The notes beneath the pieces are model-generated. The model was not told the DNA's origin and ran no database searches. It saw only the letters and a list, made by a program, of their open reading frames with translations. DNA of 64,000 nucleotides from Halobaculum rubrum. GTDB taxonomy: Archaea > Halobacteriota > Halobacteria > Halobacteriales > Haloferacaceae. Below are positions 32,036 through 56,005 of this stretch, one piece after another (the first letter of the stretch is position 1; each line of letters opens with the position of its first letter). The position numbers and the translations under genes are program-made. The stretch is taken from contig NZ_CP082284.1 of assembly GCF_019880225.1 (NCBI RefSeq), forward strand, positions 2,294,001-2,358,000. Direction: 5' to 3'.

Positions 32036-32542
32036 CTATTCGGACGTGTTCGTGGCGGTGCCGGTCGTGGTGGTCGACGTATTCGTCGTCTCGCTGTCGT
32101 CGTCCGTCGCGGACGGACAGTGTGCCTTCGGGGCGACCGTCCGTGTGACCGTCACATCCAAGCCGTCGGCCGTTACCGCGACGGTGACGGTATCGACCGA
32201 GGACGAGAACTGTTCCTTGAACCGTTTGTCTACGCCGGGACCCAGATCGCCGCCGGCCGGCTGACCGTTGCCCGTCCGAACCGCGTCGTCGCTCGTGATC
32301 TCCTCGACGGTCAGCCTCTCTGTGTAGCGGTTCGTCACCCACACGCGAACCGGCGACGCGCCGTTGCCGGAGTTGCTGTTCGATATCTCGCAGGCGACGA
32401 CGCCCACGTACGCCTCGTCGTTCTCGACGACGTTGACGGAGACCGTCCGGTCCGCCTCGACGGCGGAGAATCCGGTGGTCCCGACACTCAGGCCCGTGAC
32501 GATCACGACCAGCAGCGCGAGCCTGAGCGCGGTTCCCCTCAT
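32036..32542 (-). CDS. Secreted TasA/DUF1102-like protein
   Basis: A 168-residue protein with a cleavable signal helix (about 5-24). It is followed by the motif TGFSAVEADRTVSVNVVEND, which it shares with three proteins at 33542-36347, then a beta-rich domain (VRVWVTNRYTERLTVEEI) and a Thr/Ser/Asn-rich tail that could be glycosylated. Two Cys (in VACEISN and APKAHCPS) may pair. It follows a winged-helix membrane protein gene by 3 bases on the same strand. It belongs by sequence to the surface-protein family of this island; a fibre or matrix role is inference. Confidence 0.72.
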   Translation of the reverse strand: MRGTALRLALLVVIVTGLSVGTTGFSAVEADRTVSVNVVENDEAYVGVVACEISNSNSGNGASPVRVWVTNRYTERLTVEEITSDDAVRTGNGQPAGGDLGPGVDKRFKEQFSSSVDTVTVAVTADGLDVTVTRTVAPKAHCPSATDDDSETTNTSTTTTGTATNTSE

Positions 32543-32545
32543 GAG

Positions 32546-33160
32546 TCAATCGAGCTCCGGCGGTTCGGTGTCACTCCCGAGCTTCATGTCTGACGAGTAG
32601 TAGCGGTTCGCGGCCGCCGAGACGGTGAAGGCGACGACGACGAACGCGAACCACCCGAGGTCGGGGACGAGCGTGAACGGAAAGGCGTTCACCCACACGG
32701 CCGCCAGCAGCGCCGCGGAGACGCCCGAGAGCCCGAGGTAGTACTCGCTCCACGGGATCTCCCTGCCTCGGACGACGTCGAGGTAGATCTCGACGTCCTC
32801 CAGCGCGGGCGTGGCGTCGACGGTGCCGCGGTCCTTGTCGAACTCGACGAGCCCCGCCTCGTCGAGCCGCGGGAGGTGCGACTGCTGGAGCGCGGTGTAC
32901 ACCCGCTTGCGCTCGTCGTAGCTCACCTCCGCCACCTCGATACCGTTCTCCCACGCGGCCACGCGCTCGGAGAGATCGCCGAGCTCGTGGGTCCGGTCCT
33001 CCTCGCCCGCGATCGCGTGAAGGGCATGCCGACGCCGCGGGTTCGCGAGGACGTCGAAGATCTCGTCCTCGGAGACGCCGGGCGAGTCCGCCTCCTCGTC
33101 CCCGGGCCCCACTGGCTGTACGGCGGAATCGGCCCCACCAGACATCCTCGTTCCCGACAT
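32546..33160 (-). CDS. Winged-helix regulator with two membrane helices
   Basis: A 204-residue protein. Residues 30-110 are an ArsR-like winged helix of the haloarchaeal type (EIFDVLANPRRRHALHAI, then LQQSHLPRLDEAGLVEFDK). Two C-terminal transmembrane helices (about 143-185) follow a WSEYYLGL segment. It is probably a membrane-tethered transcription factor. It is the first gene of a two-gene unit with a secreted protein and faces the surface-protein cluster across a 381-base region, so it is a natural candidate regulator of the island. Met6 is an alternative start. Confidence 0.75.
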   Translation of the reverse strand: MSGTRMSGGADSAVQPVGPGDEEADSPGVSEDEIFDVLANPRRRHALHAIAGEEDRTHELGDLSERVAAWENGIEVAEVSYDERKRVYTALQQSHLPRLDEAGLVEFDKDRGTVDATPALEDVEIYLDVVRGREIPWSEYYLGLSGVSAALLAAVWVNAFPFTLVPDLGWFAFVVVAFTVSAAANRYYSSDMKLGSDTEPPELD

Positions 33161-33541
33161 AATGTCTACATATGTCTGACACCTAGCTGCAGATAAGTGT
33201 GTTCGTTATTTTCGTTTGTCATCACGCGGTCGAATTAATTTATATGAGGACAGTATCCGGAGTGGTAACTCGGTTTTATTTCTCGTTTCTCGACGCGATT
33301 TCTCCGGATGACCACGTTCTCAATCGCGGCCTGAGCTGTCGGATCGCGGTTCGGGAGCGTCTCTACGTCGGATCTCGTAGATCGGCGCGTTCGGGTCGAT
33401 ATCGCGGTCCGTTCGCCGCCTCAGCGTCGGCGTGTCGGTGTCACAATCCGAACCTGATGTCGCTCAGTCACGTCAATACAGTAATGTCCCCCGTGGTATG
33501 GGTGAGTGAGCACACCCCCGAAACGGTGTGCGTGAACGACT
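33161..33541. promoter_or_regulatory. AT-rich divergent control region of the surface-protein island
   Basis: No gene is seen in these 381 bases. AT-rich patches include ATTAATTTATATG (33235-33247) and, on the minus-strand side, CATATGTAGACATTATG just before the winged-helix gene. GTCAATACAGTAATG (33470-33485) sits ~60 bases before the first surface-protein gene. The length and low GC suggest regulated promoters in both directions. Confidence 0.45.
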
Positions 33542-34117
33542 ATGCAACGGCGAAAGTTCATCGCAAGTGTTGGATCGCTCGCGGCCGGCTCGGCCGCTGC
33601 AGTAGGTACCGGCGCGTTCACGAGTGTGACCGCGGATCGTGGTCTGAGTATCGAAACTGCGGGAGACGCGAACGCCTTCCTCAGTATCACGAAGGCCGAA
33701 GACGGTGACGGGAACACGTACGCGAACGCAAAGGAGTACGTCGAGATCGACAACGGGCAGGTCAGCCTTGACTTCACCCAAGCTGACGACAATTCATTCT
33801 CGTCGGCGTCAGGGATCAACAAGAACGCGAAAACGGTCTTCGATCGCCTGCTCGACGTAACGAACAACGGGACTCAGGACGTTGAATTCTGGATCGAATC
33901 CGACCTGGTCGCATCCAATGGAGGATTCCTGGGGATTTACTCCGAAGACGACGACAAAGGTACCGGATTCGACGTCGACGGCAGCGGAAACTGGGGCAAG
34001 GTTACTCTCACCCCCGGCGAGACCCTCGAAGACATCGGCGTCTACATCCCGGCAGGAGTCTCTCCGTCCGAAGTTCAGGGAGGGACCATCACCTTCAAAG
34101 CCGACAGCGGGAACTAA
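33542..34117 (+). CDS. Secreted TasA/DUF1102-like protein (Tat-type signal)
   Basis: A 191-residue protein with a twin-arginine-like signal (QRRKFIASVGSLAAGS), then the family motif TGAFTSVTADRGLSIETAGD near residues 23-42. The mature domain is beta-rich and acidic (FDRLLDVTNNGTQDVEFWIE, then LTPGETLEDIGVYIPAG), as in the camelysin/TasA-like immunoglobulin-type subunits. It is less GC-rich than neighbours. It is followed 26 bases later by a paralogue; with the signal peptidase downstream it may form a surface fibre. Confidence 0.75.
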   Translation: MQRRKFIASVGSLAAGSAAAVGTGAFTSVTADRGLSIETAGDANAFLSITKAEDGDGNTYANAKEYVEIDNGQVSLDFTQADDNSFSSASGINKNAKTVFDRLLDVTNNGTQDVEFWIESDLVASNGGFLGIYSEDDDKGTGFDVDGSGNWGKVTLTPGETLEDIGVYIPAGVSPSEVQGGTITFKADSGN

Positions 34118-34143
34118 CACGAACTCCCCTCACCATCTAAATT

Positions 34144-34716
34144 ATGAAGCGGCGTAGATTACTAACTAGTCTCGGAACGCTCGTTGGTGGAACGAGCCTT
34201 GCGCTCAGTACTGGGGCGTTCACCAGTGTCAGCGCTGAACGCTCGGTCTCCGTCGACGTCACCGACGACGCCTACGCGTTCCTCAGGCTGAACGAGCGTG
34301 GCCGTGGTGAACGGTCCGAGATCGACGGTGGCACTCTGAAGTTCAATATTCCCGGTGACGATGAGGACGGCTATCCGAGCGGGAATCCGACGGACCCAGA
34401 AGGTCTCGGTACGGACTCAGTCTACCGCTTCGGTCAGGACGCGGAAGGCGGCGAAACGGGACTGTTCGGAATCACAAACCACGGGACGCAACCCGTCAAG
34501 GTGTACAGTACGCAGTCCTCGACCAGCAACGAGCCGTCGGTCACGATCTTCGACGTGGAGACGGGTAACCTGTTGACTGAGAACGATCCCTCAGATCCGC
34601 TCGGTGTCGGCGATCAACTCCTCTGTGGGCTGGAGATCGACACCTACGGCGTCCCCGTCCAAGCCGAGGAATACGATGTGTCGTTGATGATCAATGCTGT
34701 CGCGACAGACGACTGA
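34144..34716 (+). CDS. Secreted TasA/DUF1102-like protein (paralogue)
   Basis: A 190-residue paralogue of the upstream gene: Tat-like signal (KRRRLLTSLGTLVGGTS), motif TGAFTSVSAERSVSVDVTDD at about 23-42, then AYAFLRLNERGRGE and a beta-rich acidic domain (LFGITNHGTQPVKVYSTQ, later YDVSLMINAVATDD). One Cys (LLCGLE). Members of this family appear in clusters with signal peptidases in haloarchaea. Tandem arrangement suggests major and minor subunits of one structure. Confidence 0.78.
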   Translation: MKRRRLLTSLGTLVGGTSLALSTGAFTSVSAERSVSVDVTDDAYAFLRLNERGRGERSEIDGGTLKFNIPGDDEDGYPSGNPTDPEGLGTDSVYRFGQDAEGGETGLFGITNHGTQPVKVYSTQSSTSNEPSVTIFDVETGNLLTENDPSDPLGVGDQLLCGLEIDTYGVPVQAEEYDVSLMINAVATDD

Positions 34717-34787
34717 GTAGCTAACAAACCCACATCGGCTCCACGGCGGTTCGATTCCGCCGGTGGGTTTCCGACCGACCACCCGAA

Positions 34788-36347
34788 ATGAGACGACTCG
34801 CGGCCGCCCTCGCGGCGCTCGCCCTCGCGGGAGCCCTCGTGTTCCCGTCAGCCGCGGCCTCGTTCTCGCTCGCCGTCGACCCGATCGGTAACGACGTTGA
34901 CCTCTCGCCCACCGACGACCCCAACGGCGACTACGCTTACCTCGACGACAACGACGAACTCGTCGTCGACCTCACCGCGACGAACACGGAGGTCGACGGC
35001 GAGGGCGTCAACGACGACGGCGTCACCACGATCTCGAACGTCTTCGAGATCCGATACAACGGCTCCCGGTACGCGCACGTGTGGATCACACACGGCTCCG
35101 AACAGGTGACGCTCGTCGCCCGCGGCGACCCCATCGAGTCGGAGTCGGCCAACGTCACCCTCGGGCCGAACGGGTCCGTCGCGGTCGGGATCGTCGTCGA
35201 CACGACCGGCGAGACGCCCGACGGGCTGATCGACGACATGCAGGTGCACGCGAAGGTGGCCGACCCCGAGGACGTGAACGGCGGCGGCGACGGGGGCGGC
35301 GGCACAGGGGGCATCGGTGCCGCCGGCGTCGGGAGCACGGCGGACACCGACGACGGCGATGAGGCCGACGCCGGGGACGACGGGGACGACGGGGCGGCGG
35401 TCCAGCAGTTCGCGCGCAGCGACGCCGAGCGATCGGTCACGATCCTGGACCCGCCCACGGCCGGCCCGGTCACCGTCGACCTCGACGGGATGGCGATCGA
35501 CGGCGGCCCCGGGAACCTCACGCTCGACGCGATCGACGTCACGGCCGCCGACAGCTCGACGGTTTCGCTGAATATCACCGCCGGCGCCCCCGGGACGGCG
35601 AGCGACTCGGTCGGCGTCGAGGCGCTCGGCGTCGTCGCGGTGACCGAGACGGACGGGAGCTCCGTGGAGGACGCGACGCTCCGCTTCAGTGTCGACCGGG
35701 ATCACCTCGAGGAACGCGGGATAGCCCTCGACGACCTGGCTGTGTTCCGCGAGCGCGACGGCGAGACCGCGACGGTGCCCGTCCGCGTCGTCGGCGAGCG
35801 CGACGGGCGCGTCGTCTTCGAGGCCGACGCTGCGGACCTCTCGACGTTCACCGTCGCGGCGCTGCGGCCGTCGATCGGCGTCGCCGAGGCGTCGCTGTCG
35901 ACCGACGCCGTCGCCGCCACCGGATCGGCGACCGTGACCGCACGCGTCGTGAACGAGGGCCGCACGGCGGGGACCCGAACCGTGACGCTCACGCTCGACG
36001 GCGAGCCCGTCGCCGAGCGGACGGTCGACCTCGACGCGAACGAGTCGACGTCCGTGACGTTCGAGGTGACCCCCGACGGGACCGGCGACTACGCGGTCGC
36101 CGTCGACGGGGCGAGTGTCGGGACGCTGACCGTCGAGGGCGACGCCGGGACCGCGGAACCCTCGGAATCTGTCGACACGGTCGGCGAGTCGGCCGGAGCG
36201 GGGACCGCAGACGGCGTGGCCGCGGACGTGACGGATGCTCCCGTCGAGGAGCCCGCCGGACTGGGACTCGTCGATGTCGCCGGACTCGCGTCGCTGGCGG
36301 CGCTGACGGCGTCGCTGGTCGTGCTCGTGCGGCGGATCTCCCGATGA
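34788..36347 (+). CDS. Large cell-surface protein: DUF1102-like head, Ig-like domains, C-terminal anchor
   Basis: A 519-residue exported protein. A signal peptide (about 1-23) precedes a beta domain with the family pattern (ASFSLAVDPIGNDVDL, then VFEIRYNGSRYAHVWIT; 24-160). A Gly/Asp linker (165-205) follows. Next is a PGF-pre-PGF-like region (LRFSVDRDHLEERGIALDDL, about 300-360), a CARDB-like Ig domain (ATVTARVVNEGRTAGTRTVT, about 375-450), an acidic linker and a final transmembrane helix ending VLVRRISR. The order head, spacer, membrane anchor suggests a base or anchor for the smaller secreted subunits upstream. It starts 71 bases after the paralogue. Confidence 0.75.
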   Translation: MRRLAAALAALALAGALVFPSAAASFSLAVDPIGNDVDLSPTDDPNGDYAYLDDNDELVVDLTATNTEVDGEGVNDDGVTTISNVFEIRYNGSRYAHVWITHGSEQVTLVARGDPIESESANVTLGPNGSVAVGIVVDTTGETPDGLIDDMQVHAKVADPEDVNGGGDGGGGTGGIGAAGVGSTADTDDGDEADAGDDGDDGAAVQQFARSDAERSVTILDPPTAGPVTVDLDGMAIDGGPGNLTLDAIDVTAADSSTVSLNITAGAPGTASDSVGVEALGVVAVTETDGSSVEDATLRFSVDRDHLEERGIALDDLAVFRERDGETATVPVRVVGERDGRVVFEADAADLSTFTVAALRPSIGVAEASLSTDAVAATGSATVTARVVNEGRTAGTRTVTLTLDGEPVAERTVDLDANESTSVTFEVTPDGTGDYAVAVDGASVGTLTVEGDAGTAEPSESVDTVGESAGAGTADGVAADVTDAPVEEPAGLGLVDVAGLASLAALTASLVVLVRRISR

Positions 36348-36449
36348 GCCGGTCCCCGGGCCCGTGGACCGAACCGTTATGTCGGTTGGCATGACACCGC
36401 AAACAACCGCGTCGATGACCCTCCCCGACAGACCGCACCCGACTTACCG

Positions 36450-37283
36450 ATGACCGACACACCCGATCGCTTCTGGTCGACACTCCGGCGGGAGATCCGG
36501 TTCGTCGACTGCGTCGCACTCTCGGTCGTCCCGGTCGTCCTCGCGGCCGTGTTTCTCCTCCCGCCCGAGACGCGGATGGAGTTCGCGTTCACGTACCGCC
36601 GGCCGACCGTCCTCACTGCCTTCACCGCTCACTTCGTCCACCGCTCGCTCGAACACCTGGTAGCCAACGTCGCCGGCTACGTGCTGCTGGCCGGACTCGG
36701 CTACGTGTTGGCGGTACTCGCCGATGAACGACGACTGTTCGGCCTCGCCGCGACGACGTACCTGTTCGCGTTCCCGCCGGTGCTGTCGGCCCTGAACCTC
36801 GCGGTTCCCCGAAACGCCGTCGGATACGGCTTCTCGGGTGTGACGATGGCGTTCGCCGGGCTGCTCGCGGTCATGCTGGCGGCGTACGCGGGCCGTCGAC
36901 TCCACCCCGCCGTGAGCGTCCGGCACGCGCCCGCCGGGTTCCTGTCGGCGCTGGCCGCGGCGGCGCTGCTGGTTCCGACGGCGAGTCGCGTCGCGACGGC
37001 GGTGGCGGGTGTGGCCGCCCTCGGCGCGTTCGGGTACGCGGTATCGGGGACCACTGCGCTCCGCGACGGCCCGCCCCACGCGACGCTGTATCGCTCCGGG
37101 TGGGTCGACCTGTTCGCGCTGGGGGCGGTGGTGTTCGCCGGGTACCCGGTGGTCGGGTTCCCCTCGGATCTCCGCGTCGGCACGGCCGTCGTGAACACGT
37201 ACGTCCATCTACTGGGGTTTTGCCTCGCGTTTCTCGTCGCGTACCTCGTCGCGGCGACCGAGGTGCTCGACGGGGATGCGTGA
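36450..37283 (+). CDS. Rhomboid-family intramembrane serine protease
   Basis: A 277-residue protein with six or seven transmembrane helices. Rhomboid landmarks are the HRSLEHLVANVAGY helix with His69 and Asn73 (oxyanion side), the GxSG motif GYGFSGVTM with Ser129 and the late His253 in NTYVHLLGF, giving the Ser-His dyad. It would cut membrane proteins within or next to the bilayer. In this island it could process the membrane-anchored surface protein just upstream, but no evidence ties them beyond adjacency (102 bases). Confidence 0.78.
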   Translation: MTDTPDRFWSTLRREIRFVDCVALSVVPVVLAAVFLLPPETRMEFAFTYRRPTVLTAFTAHFVHRSLEHLVANVAGYVLLAGLGYVLAVLADERRLFGLAATTYLFAFPPVLSALNLAVPRNAVGYGFSGVTMAFAGLLAVMLAAYAGRRLHPAVSVRHAPAGFLSALAAAALLVPTASRVATAVAGVAALGAFGYAVSGTTALRDGPPHATLYRSGWVDLFALGAVVFAGYPVVGFPSDLRVGTAVVNTYVHLLGFCLAFLVAYLVAATEVLDGDA

Positions 37284-37352
37284 CCGTGGCGGGACGGCGC
37301 CGCCGTGACCCGAGGATACTTATCTCGTGACACGAACACGTCATCGACGCGA

Positions 37353-38519
37353 ATGGACGCCCGACGACTCCTCACGCTCGGCTCGGAACTCCTGTTGGTC
37401 GTCGTCGTCGTCTCCCTCGTCGCCGGGCAACTGCTCGGGCAGCCGATCCTCCTCAGCTACGTCGAGACCGGGAGCATGGCCCCGACGATGGAGCCCGGCG
37501 ACGGCTTCATCGCGGTCCCCGCCGCCGTCGCTGGCGATCCCGAGCCGGGAGACGTGGTCACCTTCGACGCGCAGGAACTGAACGGCGGCGGCCTCACCAC
37601 CCACCGGGTCGTCGGCGAGACCGAGCGCGGCTACGTCACTCGCGGGGACGCGAACCCGTTCACCGATCAGGACGGCTCCGAGCCGCCCGTGAAGGACGCG
37701 CAGATCGTCGCCCACGCCCTCCGTGTCGGCGGCACGGTGGTCGTGATCCCGGAACTCGGGACGGCCGTCATGGGGATCCGCGGACTGCTCACCGGCGCAC
37801 AGCGGTGGCTTGCGGCCACCGTCGGGAGTCGATCGTTGCTGGGCACGCAGGGAATCGCCTACGTGGTCCTGGCGCTTTCGGCGCTCGGGTACGTCGTCGA
37901 CCTGCTCCGAGGCGGCCCCGCCGACGGCCCCGACCGAACACGCTCGACCGATCGCGACGACGGGGTCTCGACGCGGCTGATCCTCGTCGGCCTCGCGGCG
38001 ATGGTCGTCGTCTCGGCCACCGCCGCGATGGTCGTGCCCGCCGGCACCCAGGAGTTCGGGATCGTGAGCGCCGAGTTCGACTCCGAGAACCCCACGGTCA
38101 TCAGGCAGGGAGGAGCTTCGACGATCGAGTACCGCGTCCCGAACGCCGGACTGGTCCCCGTTCACAGCTACGTCCGTCCCGCAAGTGACGGTGTCGCAGT
38201 CTCCCCGGAACACGTGTTCGTGGAAGGTCGCGGGGAATCGACGGTATCGATCACGCTCTCGGCACCCGACGAGACGGGCTACTATCGGCGATACGTCGCC
38301 GAACATCGGTATCTCGCGGTGCTCCCGGAACCGCTGATCCGCGATCTGTCGAGGGCCCATCCGTGGCTTCCGATCGTCGCGATCGACGCGATGCTCGGCG
38401 GAGGAATCTACGGGCTCGGTCGTCTGCTCATCGACGGCGGTCGGACCCGGATCCGTTCGCGGGACGCACGCTACGACCGGCCGATCGCCGCCAGGATACG
38501 GCGGCTGCTGACTCGATGA
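37353..38519 (+). CDS. Sec11/SipW-like signal peptidase I with extra C-terminal domain
   Basis: A 388-residue membrane protease. The N-terminal helix (12-30) is followed by box B YVETGSMAPTMEPGDGF with Ser41, then His84 in GLTTHRVVGE and Asp residues in RGDANPFTDQD. This is the Ser-His-Asp arrangement of archaeal and eukaryotic Sec11 and Bacillus SipW rather than the bacterial Ser-Lys pair. Unlike ordinary ~200-residue signal peptidases it continues with two more helices and an Ig-like domain (about 240-335, ASTIEYRVPNAGLVPVHSYV). A TATA-like GGATACTTATC lies ~35 bases before the ATG. Its place among secreted paralogues suggests a dedicated processing enzyme. Confidence 0.85.
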   Translation: MDARRLLTLGSELLLVVVVVSLVAGQLLGQPILLSYVETGSMAPTMEPGDGFIAVPAAVAGDPEPGDVVTFDAQELNGGGLTTHRVVGETERGYVTRGDANPFTDQDGSEPPVKDAQIVAHALRVGGTVVVIPELGTAVMGIRGLLTGAQRWLAATVGSRSLLGTQGIAYVVLALSALGYVVDLLRGGPADGPDRTRSTDRDDGVSTRLILVGLAAMVVVSATAAMVVPAGTQEFGIVSAEFDSENPTVIRQGGASTIEYRVPNAGLVPVHSYVRPASDGVAVSPEHVFVEGRGESTVSITLSAPDETGYYRRYVAEHRYLAVLPEPLIRDLSRAHPWLPIVAIDAMLGGGIYGLGRLLIDGGRTRIRSRDARYDRPIAARIRRLLTR

Positions 38520-38566
38520 CCGATTGACCAACAGACATATCAAGAACGCCACCACACGGAGCAGTG

Positions 38567-39985
38567 ATGGATGAGGCCACGCGACTCCGCGTTCGGTCGG
38601 CCCTATCGTCGTGGCTTGCGGTTCTACTCGTCGTCTCGTTCGTTGTCGGCGGTGCCGGTGCGTGGGCGACGTACACGGCACACGTCGGTTCGGAGACGGA
38701 GACCGTCGAGCGGACGACCACGGTGTGGACCGCGACCGGGTCGTTCGACCACTCGGCGACCGTCGTCCGCGCGAACCCGCTGTATCCGATCGGAACGACG
38801 CTGACGAACCGATCGACGTACTTCCGTTCCGCCACCCCGGTGCTGGACGGTAGGTTCACCGTCGCCGCTCCCGGGCTTCAGGGGAACACGTCGGTGGAAC
38901 TCGCGACGACGCTGTCGATCGAATCCGCCGACGAGGAGACGACCTACTGGAGCGACAGCAGACCACTGAACTCGACGACCGCCGACGGGCCGGCGACGGT
39001 CGCGTTCTCGATCAACACCACCGACGTCGCCGACCGGATCGCCGCGATCGAGTCGGGGATCGGCTCGACGCCCGGTGAGACGACCGTCGCCGTCGTCGTC
39101 GACGTGGCGATCCGGGGGACGACCGCCGACGGCGCGACGAGCCGACTTTCGTTCTCGAGTCGCCTCCCCGTCGAACTGAACGGCGACACGTACACGGTCT
39201 CCGATCCCGGCCCGATCGAGGAGTCAGTCGAACGGACGGTCACCGAACGGGTGGAACGCGAGTACGGTCCCGTCCGCTCGATCGGCGGGCCGATAGCGCT
39301 TCTCGTCGGCGTCGTCGCAATCGGGACAGTAGGGTACATCGCCGGTCGCGGACGCCCCGCACTCACGGAGGCGGAACGTGCTCGCCTCGAGTACCTGGAC
39401 GACCGCTCGGAGTTCGACCAGTGGATCGTCTCCGTCGATATCCCGCCGGCGTCGGCGGATGGGCGCCCCGCTGAGGCGTCGTCGCTCGCGGACCTGGTGA
39501 ACCTCGCGATCGACACGGACAACGCCGTGCTCAAGACGCCGGACGCGGAGGAGTTCCACGTCGTCGACGGGACGTACCGCTACACGTACCACGCGCCCCC
39601 GCCCGCCGGGTCCCACTCGAACGAGCGGCATTCGGCGGGGGAGGACGGATCCGTCCTTCCGGACCTATCGATCACACGGGGGACCGACAGCGGAGGGAAC
39701 GACAGCCAGGGGTCGGAGGAGGACGACACAGACCCGACCGGCGGCAGCGACGGAGCCGACGACCCAGACTCGGCCGGCGGCAGCGACGGAGCCGACGACA
39801 CAGACCCGACCGGCGGCAGCAACGGAGCCGACGACGTCACCGACCCAGCCGGAGCGACGGCCGGGTCCGCTGTCGATACCGGGACTGACGAGAGGGGCGC
39901 CGACGGGGATGCGACCGACATCGACGACAGTGGCGGAGACAACAGCGAGGGAGCGAGCGGCGAGGACGGCGGAACGGATAGCTGA
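38567..39985 (+). CDS. DUF5305-like membrane protein with repeat tail
   Basis: A 472-residue protein with an N-terminal helix (about 14-34), a large outside beta domain (TYTAHVGSETETVERTTTVW onward, 35-235), a second helix (about 240-262) and a cytosolic part. The tail holds imperfect repeats of DPTGGSDGADD (about 385-425), very acidic. It matches the DUF5305 family, usually found beside Sec11-type signal peptidases in archaea, of unknown function. It starts 47 bases after the signal peptidase. GTG 38564 is an alternative start three bases earlier. Confidence 0.78.
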   Translation: MDEATRLRVRSALSSWLAVLLVVSFVVGGAGAWATYTAHVGSETETVERTTTVWTATGSFDHSATVVRANPLYPIGTTLTNRSTYFRSATPVLDGRFTVAAPGLQGNTSVELATTLSIESADEETTYWSDSRPLNSTTADGPATVAFSINTTDVADRIAAIESGIGSTPGETTVAVVVDVAIRGTTADGATSRLSFSSRLPVELNGDTYTVSDPGPIEESVERTVTERVEREYGPVRSIGGPIALLVGVVAIGTVGYIAGRGRPALTEAERARLEYLDDRSEFDQWIVSVDIPPASADGRPAEASSLADLVNLAIDTDNAVLKTPDAEEFHVVDGTYRYTYHAPPPAGSHSNERHSAGEDGSVLPDLSITRGTDSGGNDSQGSEEDDTDPTGGSDGADDPDSAGGSDGADDTDPTGGSNGADDVTDPAGATAGSAVDTGTDERGADGDATDIDDSGGDNSEGASGEDGGTDS

Positions 39986-52476: not shown

Positions 52477-53333
52477 GCGCCGAGGACGCGGCCGACCGGA
52501 CGGACGGCGACGCCGCCGACGCTGAGCCGTCGCAGGCGACCGCACAGGGCGCGCGCGACGTCGACGAGCATCCGCTGGTCGTCGAGAACCTCCGCAAGAC
52601 GTTCGGCGGGATCACCGCCGTCGACGACGCGAGCTTCTCGGTCGCGGAGGGGTCGCTCACCGGACTGATCGGCCCGAACGGCGCCGGGAAGTCGACGACG
52701 TTCAACTGCATCACCGGCGTGCACGAGCCCACCTCCGGACGGGTGAGGTTCCGCGGAACGGACATCACCGGAATGGCGCCCCACGCCATCGCCCAACAGG
52801 GGCTCGTACGGACGTTCCAGATCGCCCGCGAGTTGCCGGAGATGACCGTCTTGGAGAACATGATGCTGGCGCCGAAGGGTCAGGTCGGCGAACGGCTCAC
52901 CAACGCGGTCGTGCCGGGGCTGCGCGACCGCGTCGTCGAACAGGAGGAGGAACTCCTCGAGCGGGTGTGGCAGCAACTGGAGTTCTTCGAGATCGACCAC
53001 CTCGCCGAGGAGTACGCGGGCAACCTCTCCGGCGGTCAGCGCAAGCTGCTGGAGATGGCGCGCGCGCTGATGACCGATCCCGACGTGGTGTTGCTCGACG
53101 AGCCGCTCGCGGGCGTGAATCCCACGCTGGAGGAGAAGCTGCTCGACCGCATTCACGAGCTCCGCGACAGGGGCAACACGTTCCTCATCGTGGAACACGA
53201 CATGGACGTCATCATGGACAACTGCGAACACGTCATCGTCATGCACCAGGGGTCGGTGCTCGCGGAGGGCGCCCCCGAACAGATCACGAGCGACGAACGC
53301 GTCGTCGAGGCGTACCTCGGAGGCGACGTATGA
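52473..53333 (+). CDS. livG: ABC transporter ATP-binding protein LivG
   Basis: A 286-residue ATPase. It has an acidic tail (1-33), then Walker A GPNGAGKST, the LivG-type VRTFQIARELPEMTVLENM Q-loop, signature NLSGGQRKLLEMARAL, Walker B VVLLDEPLAGVNP and switch His in FLIVEHDMDVIM. It pairs with LivF to power the LivHM channel. It overlaps the LivM stop by four bases (ATGA). Confidence 0.93.
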   Translation: MSAEDAADRTDGDAADAEPSQATAQGARDVDEHPLVVENLRKTFGGITAVDDASFSVAEGSLTGLIGPNGAGKSTTFNCITGVHEPTSGRVRFRGTDITGMAPHAIAQQGLVRTFQIARELPEMTVLENMMLAPKGQVGERLTNAVVPGLRDRVVEQEEELLERVWQQLEFFEIDHLAEEYAGNLSGGQRKLLEMARALMTDPDVVLLDEPLAGVNPTLEEKLLDRIHELRDRGNTFLIVEHDMDVIMDNCEHVIVMHQGSVLAEGAPEQITSDERVVEAYLGGDV

Positions 53334-54403
53334 GTGGCGAGGCCGACCGCAGGGAGGCCTCGAACCGAACGGGGAGCGGAGCGACCCGTGAGGCCAGTGC
53401 GGACGAGCAACGCGAGTCCTCGAACCGAACGGGGAGTGCGGGGCGCGAGCGAGGCGAGCGCCCCGAGGAGTCGAGCGGGGAGCAAAGCGACCCGCGAGAC
53501 AGTGAAACGACCCGCGAGACAGGCGAGGCCGACCGCAGAGATGCCTCGAACCGAACGGGGAGCGGAGCGACCCGTGAGGTCAGCGAGGACGAGCAACGCG
53601 AGTCCTCGAAAGACGTGGCCGACGGACCACCGATCGCCGCCGACGGGGGAACCGCGTCGACGGGCGCGACACGCTCGGCCGACGCGACGCTTCCGGAGGA
53701 GAGCCTGCTCCGCGTCCGGGATCTCGACGCCGGCTACGGCGACCTCCAGATCCTCACCGACGTGGACCTGGACGTGGGTGACGGGGAGTACGTCACCATC
53801 GTCGGCCCGAACGGCGCCGGGAAGTCGACCGTGATGAAGTCCGTGTTCGGGCTGACGTCGTACATGGGCGGCACTATCGAGTTCGCCGACACGCCGATCC
53901 ACGGCCTCCCGCCCGAGGAGATCATCCACGAGGGGATCGGCTACGTCCCCCAGAACGACAACATCTTCGAGAGCCTCTCCGTGCGCGAGAACCTGGAGAT
54001 GGGCGCGTACATCCTCGACGAGGTCCCCGAGGACCAGATCGAGTGGGTGTACGACCGCTTCCCGATCCTCCGCGAGCGGTCGGACCAGCGTGCCGGGACG
54101 ATGTCCGGCGGCCAACGACAGATGCTCGCGATGGGTCGCGCGCTCATGCTCGACCCCGACCTCCTGTTGCTCGACGAGCCGAGCGCCGGGCTCGCGCCCG
54201 ATCTGGTACAGGAGATGTTCGACCGGATCGACCGCATCAACGACGAGGGGACCGCGATCCTCATGGTCGAGCAGAACGCCAAGCAGGCGCTTCGCCGCTG
54301 CGACCGCGGCTACGTCCTCGTCAACGGGGAGAACGCGTACGTCGACGCGGGCGACGCGCTGTTGAACGACGAACAGGTCCGCAAGGACTTCCTCGGCGGC
54401 TAG
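53330..54403 (+). CDS. livF: ABC transporter ATP-binding protein LivF with repeat-built N-terminal extension
   Basis: A 357-residue ATPase; ordinary LivF is ~235. The core starts near residue 125 (LLRVRDLDAGYGDLQILTDV) with Walker A GPNGAGKST, IGYVPQNDNIFESLSVRENL, signature TMSGGQRQMLAMGRAL, Walker B LLLLDEPSAGLAP and AILMVEQNAKQAL. The first ~95 residues are low-complexity Arg/Glu/Ser/Thr. They are built from two ~90-base DNA repeats (53336-53431 and 53522-53616, offset 186 bases, in frame) plus partial copies. The extension includes a hairpin matching the intergenic repeat at 14498-14520. ATG 53330 overlaps the livG stop; an internal start cannot be excluded. Confidence 0.9.
   Translation: MSGEADRREASNRTGSGATREASADEQRESSNRTGSAGRERGERPEESSGEQSDPRDSETTRETGEADRRDASNRTGSGATREVSEDEQRESSKDVADGPPIAADGGTASTGATRSADATLPEESLLRVRDLDAGYGDLQILTDVDLDVGDGEYVTIVGPNGAGKSTVMKSVFGLTSYMGGTIEFADTPIHGLPPEEIIHEGIGYVPQNDNIFESLSVRENLEMGAYILDEVPEDQIEWVYDRFPILRERSDQRAGTMSGGQRQMLAMGRALMLDPDLLLLDEPSAGLAPDLVQEMFDRIDRINDEGTAILMVEQNAKQALRRCDRGYVLVNGENAYVDAGDALLNDEQVRKDFLGG
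53336..53616 (+). repeat. In-gene direct repeats at the 5' end of livF
   Basis: Two near-identical ~90-base units (53336-53431 and 53522-53616) both read GGCGAGGCCGACCGCAG, then CTCGAACCGAACGGGGAGCG and GACGAGCAACGCGAGTCCTC. A shortened CCGAACGGGGAG unit lies between them (53426). The first includes the GAGGCC/GGCCTC hairpin at 53339-53361. The offset is a multiple of three, so the coding frame survives. Confidence 0.75.
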
Positions 54404-54727: not shown

Positions 54728-56005
54728 ATGAAGCGATCCAACACGTTCGAGGTGATTCCGCAGTCCGACGAGGACGAGGAGTTGCTTCGCCGCGTGTTGG
54801 ACGCTTCTGCCGCTCTCTGGAACGAGATTAACTACGAGCGCCGCGAACACTATGCCGACCCTGACGGCGACGTATGGGACATTTGCGAGTATCGCGGTCG
54901 CTATAGCGGTGTTCTCGGGGCTTCGGCGGTTCAGCAAATCGAACGGAAGAACCGCGAAGCGTGGAAGTCGTTCTTTAGCCTCAAGAAGAAAGGCGAAGCC
55001 AACGGTAACCCCGGCTTCTGGAGCAACTCCAAAGACGGGCGAGAACTCCGCACGTACATCCGAAACACGTCGTACTCCGTTGAGTGGGGCGAATACTCTC
55101 GCCTTGAGATCCTCGTCGGCAAAGACCTGAAAGACGAGTACGGGTTGGGGCATCGCGAACGCCTCCGGCTCGAAGTTCGGGGCGACGCCAACTGGAAGGA
55201 GTATGAGAAGCAGGGTCGGTTGGAATTGTTTTACGACGAGCAAGCACAGATGTTCAGGGCCTTGCAGCCAGTCACTATTGATGATTCTCGACTGGCATCA
55301 CCACTGGCTTCGGAAGAAGCCGCTCTGGATATTGGTGCGAACAGCCTCGTCGCCTGCACAACCACGACCGGCCAGCAATACCTGTACGAAGGACGTGACC
55401 TGTTCGAGCGGTTCCGCGAGACGACGCAAGAGATCGCCCGTCTTCAATCTCTGTTGGAAGAACGTCGGCACAGTAGTCACCGTATCCGACGCCTGTACGA
55501 CCGGCGTACCAAGCGACGTGACCACGCCCAAGACGCCCTCGCCCGTGACCTCATCGAACGCCTCTACGATGAAGGTGTTTCGACGGTGTACGTCGGGGCG
55601 TTGACGGACGTGTTGGACACGCACTGGTCGGTTGAGACGAACGCGAAGACGCACAATTTCTGGGCGTTCCGAGCGTTCGTGAATCGACTGGCGTGTACCG
55701 CCGAAGAATACGGTATGTCGGTCGAGGTTCGGTCTGAAGCGTGGACAAGTCAGGAGTGTCCGAACTGCGGTTCGACAGCGGATACGACGCGACACCGCGA
55801 CACGCTGACGTGTCCGTGTGGATTCGAGGGACACGCAGACCTCACAGCGTCAGAGACGTTCTTGAGACGGCAGACGACGGTAACACGGCCGATGGCACGG
55901 CCTGTATGCCTCAAGTGGGACAACCACGAATGGTTGGAGTCATCACGCTCTCCCTGTCCCAACGAGGAGCATACGAACCCGCAAGTTGCCTCCGTGGGCC
56001 GGTAA
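54728..56005 (+). CDS. tnpB: TnpB-family RNA-guided nuclease with altered RuvC-II site
   Basis: A 425-residue IS1341-type TnpB. N-terminal WED/REC-like region (1-195); Ruv[17 protein letters not shown] with Asp201; bridge region; Ruv[15 protein letters not shown] (286-297); [15 protein letters not shown]; zinc ribbon CPNCG and CPCG (Cys344, 347, 362, 364); Ruv[13 protein letters not shown] with Asp371. Haloarchaeal relatives usually read VGDLT where this one has VGALT; the acidic residue is missing and cutting may be lost. Lower GC than the genome. It is followed by a hairpin that should form the 3' part of the omega RNA. Confidence 0.88.

Follow-up and report, generated by a model that had tools for sequence, protein, structure and literature searches.

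What surface structure, if any, is encoded at positions 32036-39985 of a 64,000-nucleotide stretch of the Halobaculum rubrum genome (contig NZ_CP082284.1, positions 2,294,001 to 2,358,000; hereafter the window), where four secreted proteins stand together with a rhomboid protease, a signal peptidase and members of the DUF5305 and DUF7344 families? The initial annotation had proposed a SipW-TasA-like module for a processed surface fibre or matrix, and all eight of its open reading frames (ORFs) were recovered with identical coordinates (Table 1; proteins are named here by the first coordinate of their genes). Our analysis indicates that this is very probably a tafi-like surface fibre locus. The name Taf abbreviates Tat-fimbriae, threads on the surface of haloarchaea with parts exported by the twin-arginine (Tat) pathway, as introduced in PMC12687288, where Galeva et al. 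2025 (iScience 111793) is cited as the source; our use of tafi gene roles as evidence was confined to NCBIfam names, and the formation of fibres by H. rubrum is predicted from its genes.

A profile of 70 relatives from the family of the pilin-like proteins 33542 and 34144 matched only one solved chain with certainty, chain C ("Pilin") of 9P0A, the Tafi pilus of Natrinema sp. J7-2 (E 9e-33), which was also reached with the 33542 sequence by itself (E 9e-16), while TasA was not matched by this profile among the solved sequences. The AlphaFold model of 33542 likewise had 9P0A as its top fold match (Z 8.9, 129 residues, 3.2 Å), followed by the Pyrobaculum bundling pili (7UEG, Z 8.8) and a Sulfolobus thread (7PNB, Z 7.1), with unrelated rows beginning at Z 6.4. 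The correspondence extends to gene order, as the locus with a pilin identical to 9P0A (186 residues compared) contains DUF7344, pilin, TafF-like protein (F-protein), signal peptidase and DUF5305, a layout matching that of the window, and loci which pass the NCBIfam Taf cut-offs also have DUF7344, peptidase and DUF5305. The proposal of a processed surface fibre with its own peptidase is thus supported by homology to a solved pilin, by synteny with the locus of that pilin, and by conserved co-occurrence of the genes.

Both pilin-like proteins start with twin-arginine signals (MQRRKF in 33542, MKRRRL in 34144), which were not remarked on in the initial annotation, and the RR pair is present in 194/207 pilin relatives containing the anchor motif (109/122 in a smaller count); these wider counts were used for the statistics because the rows of the 70-relative alignment had been selected for RR. 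In that alignment Gly24 and Ala25 are invariant and Phe26 is present in 67/70 rows. A cut ahead of Ala25 would therefore leave an Ala-Phe start, as TasA has, giving the predicted mature N-termini AFTSVTADR for 33542 (the putative donor strand) and AFTSVSAER for 34144, two subunits with 32% identity across 130 aa. The Phe at P2' of TasA is part of the reason why TasA requires SipW (PMC10269814), and in TasA fibres the donor-strand residues F29 and I32 touch the next subunits (PMC9674648); the spacing of F26 and V29 in the window pilins is the same as that of F29 and I32. The claim that all four secreted proteins share a post-signal motif held for 32036, 33542 and 34144, to which the relaxed form TG[AF][FS].{1,2}V.A[DE]R is limited in the window (ORFs scanned over about 22-50 kb), but not for 34788, where the motif is absent; the "diverged head" ascribed to 34788 is borne out by its matches to Pfam DUF1102 and, under the cut-off, to NCBIfam TafF. 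Across related loci the relaxed motif was found in 62 of 18,883 six-frame ORFs, all but one of which (61/62) belong to the secreted-protein family.

We expanded the comparison to 80 named haloarchaeal loci, fetched starting from the peptidase alignment, of which 59 are complete in having 8 kb on either side of the peptidase. Among the genes lying no more than 8 kb from the peptidase in these complete loci, DUF5305 (57/59), DUF7344 (55/59) and pilins (54/59) are most frequent, followed by TafC-like (C-like) proteins (49/59), F-proteins (42/59) and the rhomboid (35/59). The usual order has the C-like and DUF7344 genes on one strand, and one to four pilins, F-protein, rhomboid, peptidase and DUF5305 on the other. 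The expected co-occurrence of DUF1102-like, Sec11-like and DUF5305 genes is therefore conserved in haloarchaeal loci and, as described below, beyond them. Locus L021 (genome G002:C1:1995428-1995904) contains a 2593-aa open frame that opens with a TafE-like signal and a donor-strand head, possibly a giant tip adhesin plugging into the same fibre.

The window resembles tafi in the Tat signals on its pilins, in having homologous pilins together with F- and C-type proteins, and in its DUF7344, Sec11-type peptidase and DUF5305 neighbours, and it differs in its short C-protein, its F-protein extended by CARDB and PGF-pre-PGF, and the rhomboid gene within the operon. In a peptidase tree (quick search) the window kind (73 rows) and the bona fide taf kind with its relatives (21 rows) were separated with 99% support. 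Because of this separate peptidase clade and of Taf scores below cut-off, the window is best described as a sister variant of tafi and not as an equivalog; nor are the two types simple orthologues, since genome G014 has one taf-type and one window-type locus (L134, L135). Several observations weigh against a tafi-like fibre: the best window scores for TafA, TafC, TafE and TafF are 34, 25, 70 and 49 bits with cut-offs of 190, 410, 155 and 420, a search of the whole genome found no protein above these cut-offs, the 33542 model is moderate (mean pLDDT 75, N-terminus unmodelled), clear Tat signals were not seen in 32036 and 34788, and the putative cleavage site of the pilins is read from the motif. 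The fold of TasA itself (8AUR) is likewise matched weakly (Foldseek E 0.017, prob 0.30), and 8AUR is absent from the Z-ranked rows listed.

With regard to other fibre systems, Pyrobaculum AbpA (7UEG) shares the pilin fold across 125 residues, although with 12% identity and in another archaeal phylum. The Bacillus subtilis TapA-SipW-TasA system also has a dedicated endoplasmic reticulum (ER)-type peptidase adjoining its fibre substrates and a Phe two residues past the predicted cut, but there export is by Sec, whereas the window pilins use Tat; neither the SipW-cognate nor the M73 signature was seen in the window proteins (no match to TIGR04088 or PF12389 at E up to 1), and the window additionally has DUF5305, DUF7344, the F-protein and the rhomboid. 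Tafi is the closest of the known systems, within the wider TasA/AbpA donor-strand superfamily, and kinship of the window proteins to TasA/camelysin proper is remote. Of the SipW-TasA-like label, the fibre and the Sec11/SipW-type peptidase are retained, while the nearest system is tafi and pilin export is mainly by Tat.

The rhomboid at 36450 has the GxSG motif of its family (76/76 relatives), in agreement with its annotation as a rhomboid, while its score with the rhombosortase model TIGR03902 is far under the cut-off. The product of 34788 finishes in EEPAGLG, a membrane helix and an RR tail (EEPAGLGLVDVAGLASLAALTASLVVLVRRISR), and F-proteins beside a rhomboid mostly end in the same way, with (E)EP[AGS]G[FIL][GD] preceding a membrane helix and RR. 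The PGF-CTERM model did not match the 34788 product, for which TafF and PGF_pre_PGF were the only matches at E up to 1. After clustering at 70% identity, a [GSA]G[FIL] tail was present in 31/40 clusters with a rhomboid versus 7/28 without one (Fisher p 2e-5), but in independent pairs on the peptidase tree the rhomboid and the tail changed in the same direction in 2.0, in opposite directions in 0.9, and showed no difference in 6.1 of 9 pairs. An established pair of rhomboid and own sorting signal was rejected for this reason, the raw association being strong and the tree test unsupportive, and because the independent-pairs test gave no support the link between rhomboid and F-protein remains a lead. 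The arrangement resembles rhombosortase/GlyGly-CTERM, in which a rhomboid stands next to a single protein bearing a short motif, a membrane helix and a basic tail, dedicated pairs being neighbours as a rule (Haft and Varghese 2011, PMC3237569), but the window-type motif EEP[AGS]G[FIL] is not Gly-Gly, and the system is archaeal.

We give roughly even chances to the rhomboid acting on the F-protein. The suggestion that it releases the anchored protein fits the raw tail association, but linked change is unsupported on the tree. A slightly less than even chance goes to the rhomboid having no action on the TafF-like protein and serving instead in general membrane proteolysis or quality control, a reading which agrees with the failure of rhomboid and tail to track each other in gain and loss, and with loci L137, L175 and L176, where the rhomboid stands beside an F-protein without a C-terminal helix. 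Speaking against such a general role are the raw association, the observation that among the fibre-type proteins of the cluster only the F-protein has a single C-terminal helix, and the rhomboid-less clusters L143, L156 and L162, where F-like proteins end in archaeosortase-type PGF tails, as if an archaeosortase had replaced the rhomboid.

The signal peptidase at 37353 has the Ser41-His84-Asp active site and extra C-terminal domain noted initially, the latter being an ectodomain located between membrane helices. There is no Lys dyad, Ser41, His84, Asp99 and Asp105 are invariant across 60 relatives, and the profile matches human SEC11A; these invariant residues and the SEC11A match identify an ER-type enzyme, and the score with the archaeal-type signal peptidase model TIGR02228 is above cut-off, while the SipW equivalog NF046067 reaches 26 bits (cut-off 190). 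The ATG at 37353 is favoured as start over the GTG at 37305 because relatives start at the former. It is likely that this peptidase is dedicated to the fibre locus. The opposite arrangement, in which peptidase and DUF5305 have a general processing role and just happen to lie in the cluster, the pilins being cut by a housekeeping peptidase, could draw on a second clear signal-peptidase homologue in the genome (G000:C1:1402015), but we consider it quite improbable, as that homologue has no DUF5305, DUF7344, pilin, C-like, F or rhomboid neighbours in the stretch fetched, and the peptidase-DUF5305 pair tracks fibre-type proteins throughout the phylum.

The last gene of the cluster, 38564, had been annotated as DUF5305-like and does match Pfam DUF5305. 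Its model consists of a helix (4-40), a beta-sandwich (45-231), a second helix (236-261) and a small cytosolic domain (269-343), followed by a disordered acidic tail, and the sandwich gave only generic beta-sandwich fold matches (Z up to 7.7). Kinship with eukaryotic SPC22/23 was considered because of a similar topology, but no such chain was among the fold matches listed, and profile comparison gave no kinship with the C-terminal domain of the peptidase either. No mention of DUF5305 or DUF1102 was found in the literature searched. We infer that DUF5305 is a partner of the signal peptidase, and what we regard as new beyond the known systems is that DUF5305 accompanies fibre-dedicated signal peptidases across the phylum.

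This pairing was traced outside the haloarchaea. DUF5305 was found in 44/197 genomes sampled across the phylum, and the peptidase profile matched a DUF5305 neighbour in 28 of 30 loci; non-haloarchaeal matches were modest in score, with Pfam peptidase S26 or S24 backing in the four tested. Of 12 loci examined outside the order, ten have DUF1102 or camelysin/SipW-type proteins alongside. Three of these (L229, L230 and L232) contain DUF7344, a peptidase, a TafC-like protein and two DUF1102 proteins (129-138 bits, three tested), to which L229 and L230 add DUF5305. The signals in these three loci are taken to be Sec-type since RR is absent, and most of the proteins retain the [AS]DF..[YF].A.R start. 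The other seven (L222-L224, L226-L228 and L231) have one to five SipW-cognate/camelysin-type proteins beside the peptidase-DUF5305 pair, of the GTLAYFSDTETS type and mostly scoring over the cut-offs of TIGR04088 and Pfam M73, a motif found in none of the 18,883 ORFs from the haloarchaeal loci. The remaining two, L225 and L233, are of unclear content, the latter ending at a contig edge. DUF5305 thus links tafi-like and TasA/camelysin kinds of locus outside the haloarchaea. We tentatively suggest, at a little under even odds, that DUF5305 is a standing second component of archaeal fibre-dedicated peptidases, forming an ancestral pair which would serve, over the whole phylum, the Tat pilins of haloarchaea, Sec DUF1102 pilins and camelysin/SipW-type proteins alike, that the peptidase cut starts the polymerisation of pre-folded haloarchaeal pilins, and that the rhomboid was added in the window variant for release or hand-over of the F-protein via a new C-terminal signal.

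It is very improbable that the secreted proteins instead make up a coat or matrix on the cell surface, or are soluble, with an inherited fold and a different assembly: beta-sandwich folds are common, many moderate matches (MSP, PapD-like) come close behind the top rows and TasA kin such as camelysin are described as surface enzymes (Pfam name), but sequence and fold both have as their best match a filament subunit, from a locus with a layout identical in kind, and the donor-strand segment is conserved.

For the tafi-like fibre, the following order of events can be proposed. Pilins 33542 and 34144 would fold in the cytoplasm and leave via Tat, with their N-terminal strand (AFTSV.A.R) unable to act as donor strand as long as the signal peptide remains in place. 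The Sec11-type peptidase, together with DUF5305 as its membrane partner, would then cut ahead of Ala-Phe, and the freed strand could enter the next subunit, so that a thin fibre builds up. The TafC-like protein 32036, which is placed after DUF7344 as is the bona fide TafC in locus L130, is a probable minor subunit of this fibre, while the TafF-like protein 34788 may keep the fibre base in the membrane, its C-terminal helix being potentially cleavable by the rhomboid. The winged-helix protein with two membrane helices facing the cluster, identified here as DUF7344 and with both hydrophobic segments recovered, is a probable membrane-bound regulator that may control the divergent operon. The six genes of the forward run are separated by gaps of 26-102 bases.

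Table 1. Features of the tafi-like locus of Halobaculum rubrum, in window coordinates.
Feature	Coordinates	Strand	Basis
TafC-like secreted protein, short, 168 aa	32036..32542	-	Sec-type signal peptide, TGFSAVEADR motif, Thr-rich tail; NCBIfam TafC 24.7 bits (cut-off 410)
DUF7344 winged-helix protein, "tafB" position	32546..33160	-	Pfam DUF7344 103 bits; two membrane helices
Divergent intergenic region, regulator vs pilin operon	33161..33541	.	sequence
Pilin-like subunit 1, 191 aa	33542..34117	+	DUF1102 29.5 bits (cut-off 22.2); TafE 70 bits; Tat signal MQRRKF
Pilin-like subunit 2, 190 aa	34144..34716	+	TafE 48 bits, TafA 34 bits; Tat signal MKRRRL
TafF-like anchored protein, 519 aa	34788..36347	+	TafF 49 bits; DUF1102 22.6 bits; PGF_pre_PGF 29.5 bits; CARDB 28.4 bits
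Rhomboid-family intramembrane protease	36450..37283	+	GFSG motif, C-terminal-helix His; TIGR03902 23.4 bits (cut-off 84)
Sec11/SipW-type signal peptidase, 388 aa, "tafD" position	37353..38519	+	TIGR02228 53.7 bits (cut-off 51.85); Ser41-His84-Asp99
DUF5305 membrane protein	38564..39985	+	Pfam DUF5305 155 bits; model pLDDT 94.5

Elsewhere in the window, a TnpB/OrfB-like protein with a zinc-ribbon (CPNCGS...CPCG) is encoded at 54728-56005 (+), in the 2-kb bin with the lowest GC content (0.599) and adjoining ABC transporter genes of the liv type and a gene for a succinate dehydrogenase flavoprotein; it is likely to be an IS605-type insertion or a domesticated TnpB. An ABC-transporter ATPase ORF at 52967-54403 (+) has a repetitive acidic low-complexity linker in its N-terminal part (REASNRTGSGATRE...DEQRESSNRTGS repeats), and its true start may lie further in.

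Taken at the level of function, these results provide a reading for families of unknown function, namely DUF1102, DUF5305 and the membrane-bound branch of DUF7344, and they connect the tafi pilus of haloarchaea with SipW-TasA systems via a shared processing pair. They also make it testable how Tat-exported, pre-folded pilins avoid polymerising within the cell, and extend the predicted range of tafi-like fibres beyond the few strains studied so far, taking in many genera of haloarchaea as well as genomes outside the order.

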